Part shown: positions 58,212 through 62,892 of the stretch, piece after piece
How the letters are laid out: every line of letters starts with the position of its first letter
Numbering within the stretch: the stretch's first letter is position 1
DNA from: Terriglobia bacterium
GTDB lineage: Bacteria > Pseudomonadota > Alphaproteobacteria > Acetobacterales > Acetobacteraceae
Assembly (NCBI GenBank): GCA_023511585.1
Contig: JAIMBF010000001.1
Span: forward strand, 1-64,000
DNA: 64,000 bases
Direction of reading: 5' to 3'
Translations under genes and position numbers: made by a program
Notes under the pieces: model-generated
What the model was told of the DNA's origin: nothing
Databases searched by the model: none
What the model saw: only the letters and a program-made list of their open reading frames with translations

Positions 58212-60023
58212 TCAGTCGCCGCACGCCGCGAGCGCCATCTCCAGGTCGCGGATGAGATCCTCGGCGCTTTCCAGCCCGATGGAAAGCCGCACCACGTCCG
58301 GCCCTGCTCCGGCCGCGATTTGCTGCTCTTCGGTTAACTGGCGGTGCGTCGTGGAAGCCGGATGCAAAATCAGGCTTCGGGTATCGCCGATATTGGCGAG
58401 GTGCGAAAACAGCCGCACGCTCTCCACAAGCTTCACCCCTGCCGCGTAGCCGCCTTTCACGCCGAAGGTGAAGACCGCGCCGGGGCCTCGGGGCATGTAT
58501 TTTTGCGCCAAGGCGTAAAACGGGCTTGATTTCAGCCCCGCATAGGAAACCCAGGCCACTTTGGGGTGGGCCTCGAGAAATTCCGCTACTTTTTGCGCAT
58601 TCTGCACATGCCGCTCCATGCGCACCGGCAGGGTTTCGATGCCGGTGATGGTCAGAAACGCGTTCATGGGCGCCATGGTCGGGCCGAAATCGCGCAACGC
58701 CACCGCACGCGCCTTGGTGGTGAAGGCGAAATCGCCGAAATTCTCAAAGAAGCGCAAGCCGTGATAAGCGGGCTCGGGCTCGGTCAGCGAAGGAAACCGC
58801 CCGTCCTGCGACCAGTCAAACTTCCCCGATTCCACCAAGACCCCGCCCAAAGCATGGCCGTGGCCGGAAAGGAACTTGGTGGTGGAGTGCACAACGAGGT
58901 CCGCCCCCCATTCGATCGGGCGGCAGAGATAGGGCGAGGCCAGCGTGTTATCGACAATCAGGGGAATGCCGGCGTCATGCGCAATCCTGGCGATGGCTTC
59001 GAGATCGACGACAATCCCGCCGGGGTTGGCCAGGCTTTCCACGAAAATCGCCTTGCAGCGCGGGGTCAGCGCACGCGCGAAATTCTCCGGCTCGCGGGGG
59101 TCGACAAAATGGCACTTCCAGCCGAGCCTTGGGAAAGAGCGGCCGAATTGCGTCAGCGATCCGCCATAGAGATTGCGCGAGGCAACAAATTCATCGCCCG
59201 GCTCGAGCAAGGTGAAAAACGCGAGAAACTGCGCCGCATGGCCGGATGCCGCGGCAACCGCCGCGCGCCCGCCTTCGAGGTTTGCCACCCGCTCTTCCAA
59301 CACCGCAACCGTCGGGTTGGTGAGGCGCGAATAAATATAGCCGAAATTGTGCAGGTTAAACAAAGAGGCCGCGTGGTCCACATCCTTAAACACATAGGAC
59401 GTGGTCTGATAAATCGGCGTGGAACGCGCTCCGGTGGTCGGATCGGGCGCCGCTCCCGCGTGGATCGCCCGCGTTTCAAATCCATAGGTGATGTTATGTT
59501 CGGGCAGGGGCTGCGTGCGGGTTGCTGCTTCCGTCGGGGCCTCGGGCGGGCGATTGCGCACCAGGCCCGAATCGACCCCGCTCCAGGAAAGCTCTCCTGC
59601 AAGGCGGCCGTATTCGATCTTGGGGCAGCGGTTCATCACCACCTCAAGCCCCGCCGCTTCCGCCCGAGCGCCTGCCGCGTCATTGCGCACGCCAAGCTGC
59701 ATCCAGACGACTTTCGCCCCGATGGCAATCGCATCATCGACAATGGGGTCGACCTGATCGGAGGCGCGGAAAATCTCCACCATATCCACCGGCTCGGGGA
59801 TCTCGCGGAGATTGGCATAAACCCGCTCGCCGAGAAGTATTTCCCCGGCAAGACCCGGGTTCACGGGGATCACGCGATAGCCTTTGCTTTGCAGGTATTT
59901 CATCACGAAATAGCTTGGCCGGTTCCAGTTGGCCGAGGCGCCGACCAAGGCAATCACGCGCACCGAGCTTAAAATTCGGCGCAGTTTGGCATCGGAATAG
60001 GGAATGGGGGCTAATGTGGTCAT
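58212..60023 (-). CDS. metY: Fusion of CoA-binding (YccU-like) domain and O-acetylhomoserine sulfhydrylase
   Basis: A 603-residue two-domain protein. Residues about 10-150 are a Rossmann CoA_binding_2 domain: VIALVGASANWNRPSYFVMK, GYRVIPVNPG and KVVWMQLGVRND. Residues about 175-603 are a Cys/Met-metabolism PLP enzyme. ETRAIHAGAAPDPTTGARST begins it, and HSTTKFLSGHGHALGG carries the PLP Lys383. It makes homocysteine from O-acetylhomoserine and sulfide. The ATG at 60023 follows gtaggcaaagcg. It lies 111 bp downstream of the DUF2249 operon on the same strand. The CoA-binding part may sense acyl-CoA, which is an inference. Confidence 0.9.
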   Translation of the reverse strand: MTTLAPIPYSDAKLRRILSSVRVIALVGASANWNRPSYFVMKYLQSKGYRVIPVNPGLAGEILLGERVYANLREIPEPVDMVEIFRASDQVDPIVDDAIAIGAKVVWMQLGVRNDAAGARAEAAGLEVVMNRCPKIEYGRLAGELSWSGVDSGLVRNRPPEAPTEAATRTQPLPEHNITYGFETRAIHAGAAPDPTTGARSTPIYQTTSYVFKDVDHAASLFNLHNFGYIYSRLTNPTVAVLEERVANLEGGRAAVAAASGHAAQFLAFFTLLEPGDEFVASRNLYGGSLTQFGRSFPRLGWKCHFVDPREPENFARALTPRCKAIFVESLANPGGIVVDLEAIARIAHDAGIPLIVDNTLASPYLCRPIEWGADLVVHSTTKFLSGHGHALGGVLVESGKFDWSQDGRFPSLTEPEPAYHGLRFFENFGDFAFTTKARAVALRDFGPTMAPMNAFLTITGIETLPVRMERHVQNAQKVAEFLEAHPKVAWVSYAGLKSSPFYALAQKYMPRGPGAVFTFGVKGGYAAGVKLVESVRLFSHLANIGDTRSLILHPASTTHRQLTEEQQIAAGAGPDVVRLSIGLESAEDLIRDLEMALAACGD

Positions 60024-60133
60024 CGCTTTGCCTACGACTGTTTCGGCAATCTTTGCGACCGCTGTCGTCGCTTGGCAAGCACAAGCATGGGACGGGTTGC
60101 CGCGCAACCCGTCCTGTTCCTTGGACGTTCCGA

Positions 60134-60385
60134 TTACGCGCCTGCTGGGGAAGACTTGGTCCGCCCGATCTCAACCCGCCAAACTTCCGGACCCTGTTCC
60201 AGGTAACGCCACGAAAACGCGCCCTTGTGCTCGTAATCAAACTGATAATACAGCGGCTTGGGGTCGTGATCGTTCACCAGCACGAAAGACTCGCCGACCC
60301 CCAGATTGTCGTAAGTCTCGAAAATCTTCTGGTGTCGTGCCGCGGGAATCAGCGCCCGCACATCCAAAACTTTGGGTTCAGCCAT
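60134..60385 (-). CDS. DUF2249 single-domain protein
   Basis: An 83-residue protein of the DUF2249 (TusA/SirA-like fold) family. VLDVRALIPAARHQKIFETY, GVGESFVLVNDHDPKPLYYQ and GAFSWRYLEQGPEVWRVEI are the family blocks. DUF2249 proteins recur in operons for nitric-oxide, denitrification and hypoxia responses, without a known activity. A strong site (aggagagttccc) precedes the ATG at 60385, which lies inside the end of the upstream small gene. It is the last gene of the five-gene operon. Confidence 0.85.
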   Translation of the reverse strand: MAEPKVLDVRALIPAARHQKIFETYDNLGVGESFVLVNDHDPKPLYYQFDYEHKGAFSWRYLEQGPEVWRVEIGRTKSSPAGA

Positions 60386-60620
60386 GGGAACTCTCCTTTT
60401 CTGCTTGAGAAGATGATCGGAAGTGCACAAGACCGTGCAGTGCCGCGTTCAAGCGCTCTGCTTCGTGCGGAAGATCTCGGCGGAGCTTGGACCAGCCTTC
60501 GGCGGCAAGCCGGCAGGCTTCCTCCGCATTGCCGCTCTTTGCCAAGGCCACGAGCGCCGTAATGAAGAGCCGGTTGAGCACGGCCACAGGCGTGCTTTCG
60601 GCCTCCGGGTTCTCCGTCAT
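60378..60620 (-). CDS. Small helical protein of the DUF2249 operon
   Basis: An 80-residue protein predicted to be all-helical (VAVLNRLFITALVALAKSGN, AEEACRLAAEGWSKLRRDLP, HEAERLNAALHGLVHF). No family recognised. It begins 6 bp after the DUF59 gene stop, with gaggaatgatcgcga upstream, and overlaps the following DUF2249 start by 8 bp, so it is embedded in the operon. Confidence 0.65.
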   Translation of the reverse strand: MTENPEAESTPVAVLNRLFITALVALAKSGNAEEACRLAAEGWSKLRRDLPHEAERLNAALHGLVHFRSSSQAEKESSHG

Positions 60621-60626
60621 TCGCGA

Positions 60627-60950
60627 TCATTCCTCGCGAATTCGGAAATGCGCCTTCGCGACGGGGGACATCATGCGCGGCGACCATGGCGGGTCCCAGA
60701 CCACATCGACGAAAACCCCCGTGATCCCCTCTTCTTGCGCCAGACGCTCTTCCACGCCGGAGACAATGAAACCCTGCGCGGGGCACCCCGGCGTCGTCAT
60801 GGTCATCCGCACGTCAACCACCCGGCCGTCGATGTTCACGTCGTAAACCAGGCCGAGATCGACGATATTGAAGCCGAGCTCGGGGTCGATCACGTCATGG
60901 AGTGCCTCCCGAACACTGGCTTCGGTGGGCAGCGGCGCATCCTCGCGCAT
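60627..60950 (-). CDS. DUF59/MIP18-family iron-sulfur assembly-type protein
   Basis: A 107-residue DUF59 protein. VREALHDVIDPELGFNIVDL and TMTTPGCPAQGFIVSGVEER (conserved Cys in TTPGCP) define it. Relatives (SufT, PaaD, MIP18) help mature Fe-S proteins. In this operon it could repair or assemble a cluster or metal centre damaged by NO or O2. The ATG at 60950 has an ideal ggagg site 9 nt upstream. It starts 5 bp after the preceding gene. Confidence 0.87.
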   Translation of the reverse strand: MREDAPLPTEASVREALHDVIDPELGFNIVDLGLVYDVNIDGRVVDVRMTMTTPGCPAQGFIVSGVEERLAQEEGITGVFVDVVWDPPWSPRMMSPVAKAHFRIREE

Positions 60951-60954
60951 CGGC

Positions 60955-61485
60955 TTAACCTCCACGCCGAATTAGGAGCCGAAACGCGCCGTCATCGCGT
61001 TGCTCGACCTTGATCGCGGCCCCGCGCGCCTCGAGCTCGGGATAAAGAAACACGGGGTTGCGCTCGTTGATCGCCTCCAAAACCTCGCCGGGGGCAAGCT
61101 CTTCCAAGGTCTGCAAAATGCGGATCATGGGCTCCGGCGGCATCAACCCGCGGTTATCCAGCGTGGTCTTGGGGGTTGGCCAATCGGTGTGGGCAACGGG
61201 TTCGGTGCGGTTCGCATCCGGCTGCCGCTTCGGCGTTTCGCTCGCCGAGGCTTGGCCTGGCGTAAACAAAATTTCCCATTCCCCTTCGCCGTGACGCGAT
61301 GCCACGTGCCCGAAACCCTTCCGTCCCAGCACGTGGTAAAGGGGGATCGGCTCGAATGTGGTCAGCAAGCGCAGCGGTTGGCCCGGCTCAAGCTTGCCGA
61401 CCGCCTCGAGAATTCTTGGCAGCGGTTCGCCGCCGCGGCGGAGCTCGTCCCGAACATCGAGCGTCAATGGCGCGAGCATCGTCAT
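60955..61485 (-). CDS. Tandem DUF2249 protein
   Basis: A 176-residue protein with two DUF2249 domains. The first (residues 1-75) has LTLDVRDELRRGGEPLPRIL and LLTTFEPIPLYHVLGRKGF. The second (about 105-176) has LDNRGLMPPEPMIRILQTLE and AINERNPVFLYPELEARG. The two are joined by a Pro/Thr-rich linker. The P-P-E-P motif of the second domain resembles the TusA/SirA active-site loop but lacks its Cys. The ATG at 61485 follows agagaggttgaac. It lies 12 bp after the membrane-protein gene. Confidence 0.83.
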   Translation of the reverse strand: MTMLAPLTLDVRDELRRGGEPLPRILEAVGKLEPGQPLRLLTTFEPIPLYHVLGRKGFGHVASRHGEGEWEILFTPGQASASETPKRQPDANRTEPVAHTDWPTPKTTLDNRGLMPPEPMIRILQTLEELAPGEVLEAINERNPVFLYPELEARGAAIKVEQRDDGAFRLLIRRGG

Positions 61486-61497
61486 GTTCAACCTCTC

Positions 61498-62841
61498 TTA
61501 CGGTTGGGGAAGGTGGAAAGGAGAGCCGGGAACCGGCGCCGGCCGCGGCGTCTGCGCGTAATGCCCACGCCAGGCGCGCCGGTATTCGCGCGCGAGCAAA
61601 GCGGTGGCGACGAGGCTTACCGCGATTGCACCGCGCAGAAATGGAGCAAGGCCGAGCCAAGCCGCGGCAGCGCCGACGGCAATCGCCGCAAAATACGCGA
61701 CAAAGACGTATCGCGCGGATCTCTCGTTCACGAGGTCTTGCACGCGCGGCACCGGGCCTCTGCCGAGCCGACGCCCGAAGCGCGCAAGCCAGGCAAGGAA
61801 GGGGATGATTTTATAGAGCTGCGAGAGGCCAAGCCCGGAGAGCCAGCCGAAAAGTACGACAAAGAGCAGGCTCGGTGCGGCTCGGGTCCAGCCGTGCGAG
61901 AGAGCGGCTGCGAGCGCCAAAGCCAGGCCGATGCCGAGGCTGATGAAGGCGCCGATCGCGGCCTGGTTGTGCAGCTCGATCTGCCGGCGCTTGCGGTCGC
62001 GATAAAGCCGCGCAATGTCGATCAGATAGAGGAGAATCGCCAAGCCGATCGCCGCTTGCCCGAAGAGTTTGATGCTTTCAAAGCCACCCAGGAGTGCCGC
62101 GGCAAATCCGAGGATTGCGGTTCCGAACACGGCATGGCCCCAAGCGCCGCGCTCGTGCGGGGCCAGCATGAACATCGGCAAAAGCTCGTAAGAGACGCCG
62201 ATTGCGGTGAGAGTGAACCAGCCGCCGAGCCCGGCCAAAGCGTGATCGGCCACGCCGTTTGCCAGCATCGGCCCAAGGGCTTGTGCCGCAGCCGGCACCG
62301 TGAGCGCCAGCGCGAAAGCAAGGCCAAGGCTTACGGTCAGAAAGAGCAGCACCAACCCGGCGATAATAAAGCGCGCGCTCAGCGGAAGCGGGCGCTTGCG
62401 TGCCAGCGGCACGGCAAGATTGAGAATTCCTGCCAAAATCCCGATCACTACCAAGCTGCCGCCTGCCGGAAGGAGCGCCGCGAGCGGGCTGCCTAAGAGG
62501 AAAAATCCCAAGACCATCCCGGCAAGGCCAAGCTCGATGAACGATAGCGTTCCCAGCGAAAGGCGCTGGCTTAACAGCGGGCTGTTGGTCACCACCGGCA
62601 CGAATTGAAACAGCGCGCCAAACATCAAAAGCGTGATCCAGCCGATGGTCAGCAGATGCACCACCGCCAGAGTCGGGGCGGCCAAGTCGGCGACACCGGC
62701 CCATCGCACGCCTGCCGCCACAAGCGCCTGTGCCAAAGCGAAATTGCCCAAAGCGCAGGCGAAAATTGCGGGCGTCCAGCGCGAGATGCGATCTGTGGCG
62801 GTCGGCGTGAGCATGGGTTGGGCTCGGTCCGGCTTGCTCAT
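61498..62841 (-). CDS. Twelve-TM haem-copper-oxidase-like membrane protein
   Basis: A 447-residue inner-membrane protein with about 12 TM segments. Histidines sit in membrane contexts (LAVVHLLTIGWITLLMFGAL and VADHALAGLGGWFTLTAIG), with FQFVPVVTNSP and SYELLPMFMLAP after them. This H-L-x-T-x-G-W-x-T...G-A-L-x-Q-x-x-P-V pattern recalls proteins related to cbb3/NorB subunit I and NnrS, although the full haem-copper ligand set is not evident. A role in NO or O2 tolerance is inferred. The ATG at 62841 has no ribosome-binding site and lies about 14 nt from the predicted transcript start. An in-frame ATG at 62814 is an alternative. Confidence 0.75.
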   Translation of the reverse strand: MSKPDRAQPMLTPTATDRISRWTPAIFACALGNFALAQALVAAGVRWAGVADLAAPTLAVVHLLTIGWITLLMFGALFQFVPVVTNSPLLSQRLSLGTLSFIELGLAGMVLGFFLLGSPLAALLPAGGSLVVIGILAGILNLAVPLARKRPLPLSARFIIAGLVLLFLTVSLGLAFALALTVPAAAQALGPMLANGVADHALAGLGGWFTLTAIGVSYELLPMFMLAPHERGAWGHAVFGTAILGFAAALLGGFESIKLFGQAAIGLAILLYLIDIARLYRDRKRRQIELHNQAAIGAFISLGIGLALALAAALSHGWTRAAPSLLFVVLFGWLSGLGLSQLYKIIPFLAWLARFGRRLGRGPVPRVQDLVNERSARYVFVAYFAAIAVGAAAAWLGLAPFLRGAIAVSLVATALLAREYRRAWRGHYAQTPRPAPVPGSPFHLPQP

Positions 62842-62868
62842 AAAGATATATTATTAGTGTATCTTTAT
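62840..62868. promoter_or_regulatory. NsrR-like inverted repeat operator overlapping the promoter
   Basis: Nine-base arms ATAAAGATA (62840-62848) and TATCTTTAT (62860-62868) are perfect inverted repeats around an 11-bp centre. The inner 23 bp (62843-62865) begin AAGAT and end ATCTT with an 11-1-11 layout, the same geometry and outer bases as the NsrR consensus AAGATGCATTT-N-AAATGCATCTT. The repeat covers the -10 box and the predicted start site, as expected for a repressor site. The binding protein is not encoded in the window. Confidence 0.6.
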
Positions 62869-62892
62869 AAGTCAGAGATGCAATCCTGACAA
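62864..62892 (-). promoter_or_regulatory. Predicted sigma-70 promoter of the DUF2249 operon
   Basis: Minus strand: -35 TTGTCA (62887-62892), 17-bp spacer, -10 TATAAA (62864-62869). Transcription would start near 62855-62857, very close to the ATG at 62841. Confidence 0.6.

Follow-up and report, generated by a model that had tools for sequence, protein, structure and literature searches.

COG4309 (DUF2249) was predicted in 2005 to be a member of the NsrR and NnrR regulons linked to NO reductase, according to Rodionov et al. (PMC1274295). In Haloferax, DUF2249 genes are induced during denitrification, and a fusion of DUF2249 with an Fe-S carrier P-loop NTPase is also present (PMC11218638). DUF2249 has also been tied to the haem-copper oxidase (HCO) superfamily by Pei et al. 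2014, as cited in PMC11218638. The protein NnrS shields the iron pool against the formation of dinitrosyl-iron (PMC9246220).

A five-gene cluster containing DUF2249 and DUF59 genes was analysed in a window of 64,000 nucleotides (the whole stretch of DNA studied). The cluster is very probably an accessory operon of the NO regulon and denitrification.

Organization of the operon

All five open reading frames are on the minus strand, in the order given by the first-pass annotation (60134-62841). They encode a 12-TM membrane protein, a double-DUF2249 protein, a DUF59 protein, a helical peptide and a single-domain DUF2249 protein (Table 1). Counted from the ATG starts, the intergenic gaps are 12, 4 and 6 bp, with one 8-bp overlap. 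PF10006 (DUF2249) was found once in the single-domain protein (5.4e-30) and twice in the double-domain protein (1.2e-38), with scores of 103.5 and 131.2 bits against a cut-off of 29.5, and PF01883 (FeS_assembly_P) was found in the DUF59 protein (8.2e-19; 68.1 bits against a cut-off of 23.5). The open reading frames, Pfam matches and spacings confirm the tightly packed operon (gaps of 4-12 bp and one overlap), with three DUF2249 domains and one DUF59 domain, that had been annotated earlier.

Downstream of the operon, beyond a hairpin and on the same strand, positions 58212-60107 encode a MetY-like O-acetylhomoserine sulfhydrylase with a fused CoA-binding domain. This gene and the divergent flbT gene were considered as parts of the system and rejected, because they are not conserved as neighbours in relatives.

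Table 1. Coordinates of the operon features in the window and of related genes in other loci
Feature	Coordinates	Strand	Basis and remarks
12-TM membrane protein, 447 aa	61498..62841	-	ORF; HCO subunit I fold in model; near-invariant His H62 (TM2) and H200 (TM6) only
Double-DUF2249 protein, 178 aa from TTG 61491; probable ATG 61485	60955..61491	-	Pfam; without conserved Cys
DUF59 / FeS_assembly_P protein, GTG 60965; probable ATG 60950	60627..60965	-	Pfam; invariant Cys61 in TTPGCP
Helical peptide, 80 aa, three-helix	60378..60620	-	ORF; Cys36 and His62 conserved; DUF2249 fusions in several relatives
Single-domain DUF2249 protein, 83 aa from ATG 60385	60134..60385	-	Pfam; near-invariant H18 and H40 (NDHDP motif)
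Operator, imperfect 17-nt inverted repeat	62837..62871		NsrR/Rrf2 type; core AAGATATATTATTAGTGTATCTT at 62843-62865; directly 5' of first ATG
Perfect 11-bp G+C-rich hairpin, no T-run	60090..60114		3' of operon; separates operon from metY-like gene
FdxA-type ferredoxins	L108 2240-2614 (own genome, contig C175); L028 2667-2990; L066 8676-8945		
Helical peptide-DUF2249 fusions	L031 11170-11643; L060 11194-11664; L078 9346-9816		

Operator and regulation

The operator core is a near-perfect palindrome with one exact match in the window, where 0.01 would be expected by chance even allowing two mismatches. By its sequence, the operator is an NsrR-type palindrome at the promoter, to which NsrR would be expected to bind. 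Of 83 upstream regions from relatives, 22 contain NsrR-type palindromes (p <= 0.02), for example AAGATATATTGACAATATATCTT, several of them perfect, and 30 contain FNR/NnrR boxes (p <= 0.05). An nsrR-like gene is often close to the operon in these relatives. The genome that carries the window (own genome) contains the operator-like pattern at five places, and a reversed-pattern control gave none. One of these sites is 5' of norC-norB beside a perfect FNR box, and another lies between a ferredoxin gene and an AhpD-like gene. The operon is apparently co-regulated with NO-handling genes, and the operator-linked NO-type regulation proposed by the first-pass annotation is supported both by the palindromes or boxes of many relatives and by the similar sites before norCB and the ferredoxin gene.

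The Rrf2 protein of the own genome (C124:252-635) has NsrR as its best NCBIfam match, at 114 bits against the equivalog cut-off of 182 bits, with a nearly equal score for RirA. The NsrR-like gene on this contig is divergent from a gene that encodes a CopD-like membrane protein of small size, and the intervening region contains partial AAGAT...ATCTT half-sites (L018 / L111 830-890).

Another reading considered is a role in the sensing or signalling of nitrogen oxides, which has been proposed for DrpA and DrpB of Thermus. DrpA is a DUF2249 protein (PMC6282519) and DrpB contains two tandem DUF2249 domains and a DUF1858 domain; DUF1858 genes occur in some of the present loci, and the single DUF2249 protein has conserved His. 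However, the set is already under dedicated sensors (NsrR, FNR/NnrR), sits at regulon output positions and lacks any recognised domain for DNA binding or kinase activity; a sensing role is very improbable.

The 12-TM membrane protein

The 12-TM protein and the 80-aa peptide gave no significant match to a Pfam or NCBIfam family, and public annotation names the homologues of the 12-TM protein 'hypothetical protein'. A model generated from a 51-sequence alignment (pLDDT 92.5, pTM 0.91) contains 12 long membrane helices. The best structural matches of the model are CcoN of cbb3 oxidase and NorB, with Foldseek E values of 3.7e-6 (3mk7) to 8e-6. The structural matches overall reach Z 34-37 over 375-394 residues; they include 8smr_E (VIA Z 36.9, rmsd 2.7 over 384 residues) and 4xyd_A (VIA Z 36.2, rmsd 2.9 over 380 residues).

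The only near-invariant His residues in 85 sequences are H62 (TM2) and H200 (TM6). With two of the six usual HCO ligand His, the protein cannot be a normal oxidase or NO reductase. H62 aligns with the TM2 His of NorB in 51 of 51 sequences and in three alignment modes, the position of a haem b ligand in NO reductase. No His is present at the positions aligned with the NorB His of TM7 and TM10; the TM7 pair and the TM10 HxH are missing, and there is therefore no dinuclear site. As modelled, the 12-TM protein has the oxidase/NO reductase fold without the reaction centre. The earlier description of the protein as 'haem-copper-like' stands for the fold (model, Z ~36) but not for the catalytic ligands, which are missing.

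Other invariant residues are Q79, P82, Y218, M223, F224, K344, W351 and R366, together with loops at about 281-290 and 356-373. Judged from the helix order and an RKRR loop, the invariant residues and loops should face the cytoplasm. A possible internal three-fold repeat of 4-TM units has GWxTLxxxGxxxxxxP-like segments at 67-82, 207-222 and 332-347, with weak hhalign support (P 0.0013-0.011).

The window protein has no Pfam match to PF00115, and weak PF00115 matches occur in 7 of 51 relatives (best 1.8e-5; 23.2 against 34.8 bits in one detailed case). A profile search of PDB sequences with the 12-TM family gave no matches, and comparison of the family with a NorB profile was not significant. 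For NnrS, the window protein has no PF05940 match and the hhalign probability of the family is 1.9%. Because the NorB and NnrS profile comparisons are not significant, HCO homology rests on the fold and the weak COX1 matches.

DUF2249 proteins, DUF59 protein and helical peptide

The DUF59 protein contains a Cys, C61, that is invariant in 64 sequences. Its NCBIfam scores are under the equivalog cut-offs of SufT (93.1 against 143.4 bits), SUF_assoc (86.4 against 202.6 bits) and PaaD (80.7 against 180 bits).

DUF2249 has sequence similarity to TusA (5.7e-12). The best matches to its fold, all weak (E >= 0.013), are the YeeE-YeeD complex and the TusA family. These likenesses are consistent with a module for sulfur relay or for the uptake of sulfur compounds, similar to YeeE-YeeD (TsuA/TsuB), in which DUF2249 would be a TusA-like carrier docking on the membrane protein. 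The DUF2249 proteins of the set, however, have no conserved Cys, the TusA CPxP position reads PPEP and the membrane protein has an HCO fold; a sulfur relay is the least credible of the readings considered and highly improbable. Without the TusA Cys or any other conserved Cys, the DUF2249 proteins are also no obvious candidates for Fe-S carriers.

In at least eight loci the helical peptide and DUF2249 form one in-frame fusion protein, and the partner is the single DUF2249 in L031, L060 and L078. The fusion, together with conservation in 19 of 80 loci, shows that the peptide is encoded by a real gene, and it links the peptide functionally to DUF2249. A model of the peptide with DUF2249 gave weak PDB matches, to the TusA-like half.

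Conservation and gene neighbourhood

One genome per species was scanned, and 298 stretches encoding 12-TM relatives were identified, of which 80 loci were kept; these were chosen by similarity and are not independent. The stretches are at most 19 kb long and many are shorter, and the neighbourhood counts, obtained by tblastn with chosen queries, are lower bounds. Among the 80 loci, all found via the 12-TM protein, partners were detected as follows: double DUF2249 in 68, DUF59 in 60, single DUF2249 in 40 and the helical peptide in 19. Denitrification or NO genes (nirK, norB, nnrS, nos, nsrR) are located within about 9 kb in at least 51 of 80 loci. The tie to NO genes is not a strict one: for 29 loci, none was detected in the stretch examined, in some cases a short one.

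The gene set is present across Alpha-, Beta- and Gammaproteobacteria, and the cores found in gammaproteobacterial and Acetobacteraceae MAGs have the gene content of the window. Matches to the 12-TM protein were detected by tblastn on 105 plasmid records from Rhizobiaceae and others. The order nor genes - hemN - DUF2249 - 12-TM - 2xDUF2249 - DUF59 - nnrS - nirK - Crp/Fnr regulator is found in R. etli, S. meliloti, Shinella and Ciceribacter. The set sits between nor-hemN and nnrS-nirK on Rhizobium etli p42f, in Roseateles and on Sinorhizobium meliloti pSymA, and adjoins nosRZDFYL in Aminobacter and Mesorhizobium. A lack of conserved association of these families would have counted against the first-pass annotation; the set instead recurs among denitrification and NO genes in all three proteobacterial classes.

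The own genome encodes nirK, nnrS, the NsrR-like Rrf2 gene and norC-norB. In the host order, with the own genome left out, co-occurrence of the 12-TM gene with NnrS is significant (4/6, p = 0.0065). Co-occurrence with nirK or cNorB is not significant (1/6, p 0.08-0.10), because few genomes carry these genes. In two Bacillota loci (L071 and L074), a second, diverged 12-TM copy with 28-33% identity is located near the first.

The main rival explanation is that the operon serves the maturation or assembly of NO reductase, or of another metalloenzyme of denitrification. The HCO-like, DUF59 and DUF2249 proteins would then help to insert FeB/haem into NorB or to assemble the NOR complex. Relevance of COG4309 to NO reductase was proposed from nor/norB co-transcription by Rodionov et al. 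(PMC1274295), the set adjoins norECBQD-hemN in Rhizobiaceae, and the operator type is common to the set and norCB in the own genome. Nevertheless, the set often adjoins nosZ or nirK and not nor, five of the seven order genomes with a 12-TM gene contain no cNorB match (E <= 1e-30), and Sulfobacillus-type loci contain the 12-TM gene and a ferredoxin with no NorB match nearby. NOR activation, moreover, is already served by NorQ and NorD. A maturation role is considered rather unlikely.

Ferredoxin and other Fe-S or iron-related neighbours

A ferredoxin gene is located near or inside the operon in 26 of 80 loci and within 1 kb in 17. An FdxA-type ferredoxin gene begins 3 bp past the operon in the closest relative (L028) and 39 bp past it in L051; in seven Bacillota loci a ferredoxin gene immediately precedes the 12-TM gene. 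The FdxA homologue of the own genome is on another contig (C175), where it has an operator-like site and is divergent from an AhpD/CMD-like gene. A second ferredoxin of FdxA type (79% identity) is encoded on the operon's own contig (L112 15606-15932; C50:75606-75932), roughly 13 kb past the operator and roughly 11.6 kb past the end of the window. An Mrp/NUBPL Fe-S carrier is encoded in three Bacillota loci and adjoins DUF59 in two. A hemerythrin gene is present near the operon in one locus (L041 11580-12041), and the domain was found in 4 of 112 scanned flanking ORFs.

The HCO fold (Z ~36), the conserved haem-type His of TM2 and the adjacent ferredoxin would suit a ferredoxin-driven membrane redox enzyme, in which the 12-TM protein would hold one haem via H62 and H200 and itself catalyse NO- or iron-linked electron transfer. 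This reading is improbable, as only two near-invariant His are present and the absence of the TM7 His pair and TM10 HxH leaves no dinuclear site.

Proposed function

The best overall explanation is that the operon encodes an NO-regulon accessory module, membrane-anchored, which protects or repairs iron and Fe-S centres; it is put forward tentatively, with a probability somewhat short of even. The mechanism itself, protection or repair of NO-damaged iron or Fe-S centres, is possible but may well prove wrong; the metal-centre repair suggested by the first-pass annotation is still plausible. NO would inactivate an Fe-S repressor of the NsrR type, and the operon would be de-repressed together with norCB and the ferredoxin gene. 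The 12-TM protein would be a membrane anchor, an HCO relative without a dinuclear centre that may hold one haem or metal via H62/H200. Its most conserved loops, RKRRxxEL and PVPRVQDLV (predicted to be cytoplasmic), would dock soluble partners. These would be the DUF2249 proteins as TusA-like adaptors, the DUF59 protein as an Fe-S or metal carrier using its invariant Cys, the helical peptide, and the ferredoxin as electron source. The assembled parts could then reductively protect, rebuild or re-metallate NO-nitrosylated Fe-S and iron centres. By analogy, the most likely functional parallel is NnrS, a guardian of the iron pool against dinitrosyl-iron formation.

In a more specific form of this proposal, a membrane complex supplied by ferredoxin would rebuild nitrosylated Fe-S and iron centres; its core would be an oxidase fold lacking the catalytic centre, joined by DUF2249 and DUF59 proteins. 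The complex would differ from YtfE, NnrS and Suf/Isc and be distributed across Proteobacteria, and Bacillota would have a reduced version (12-TM gene and ferredoxin). In this full form the proposal is unlikely.

Denitrifiers and other bacteria exposed to NO suffer damage to their Fe-S enzymes, and the repair routes are only partly known. The present locus provides a widespread, conserved candidate NO-regulated set (80 loci examined, 298 stretches with a 12-TM relative) that is testable in model rhizobia. Its membrane protein is covered by no family model and has a respiratory oxidase fold minus the active site. If the proposal is true, the set would encode a membrane-bound machine for repairing NO damage, separate from YtfE, NnrS and Suf/Isc.

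Comparison with known systems

COG4309 of the NsrR/NnrR regulons shares with the operon the domain, the apparent regulators and the co-location with nor genes; the passages of PMC1274295 consulted discuss COG4309 only and do not mention the 12-TM gene, DUF59, the helical peptide or a ferredoxin partner. The DrpA and DrpB proteins of Thermus thermophilus carry DUF2249 domains, in tandem in one of them, and are encoded in clusters for nitrate respiration, whereas the pages of PMC6282519 consulted describe no 12-TM or DUF59 partner and propose a nitrate-sensing role. The DUF59 protein shares FeS_assembly_P and the TxPGCP Cys with SufT, PaaD and MIP18-type proteins but is under the SufT, SUF_assoc and PaaD cut-offs.

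The complete fold of HCO, cbb3 CcoN and NorB (PF00115; Z ~36-37) and the TM2 haem-b His position are found in the 12-TM protein, which differs in having no TM7 His pair, TM10 HxH or PF00115 match. Some of this fold relationship may already be published, e.g. by Pei et al. 2014. NnrS (PF05940), a haem/Cu protein, resembles the 12-TM protein as a multi-pass membrane protein of the NO regulon and is often encoded adjacent to the operon. Its conserved residues are different, however, and it is a separate gene in the same genomes. The operon was first annotated as a candidate undescribed system, and this holds in part: the NO link of DUF2249 was predicted in 2005 (PMC1274295), and its induction in Haloferax (PMC11218638) and HCO association (Pei et al. 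2014, as cited there) were described before, but the full gene set and its ferredoxin partner appear to be new.
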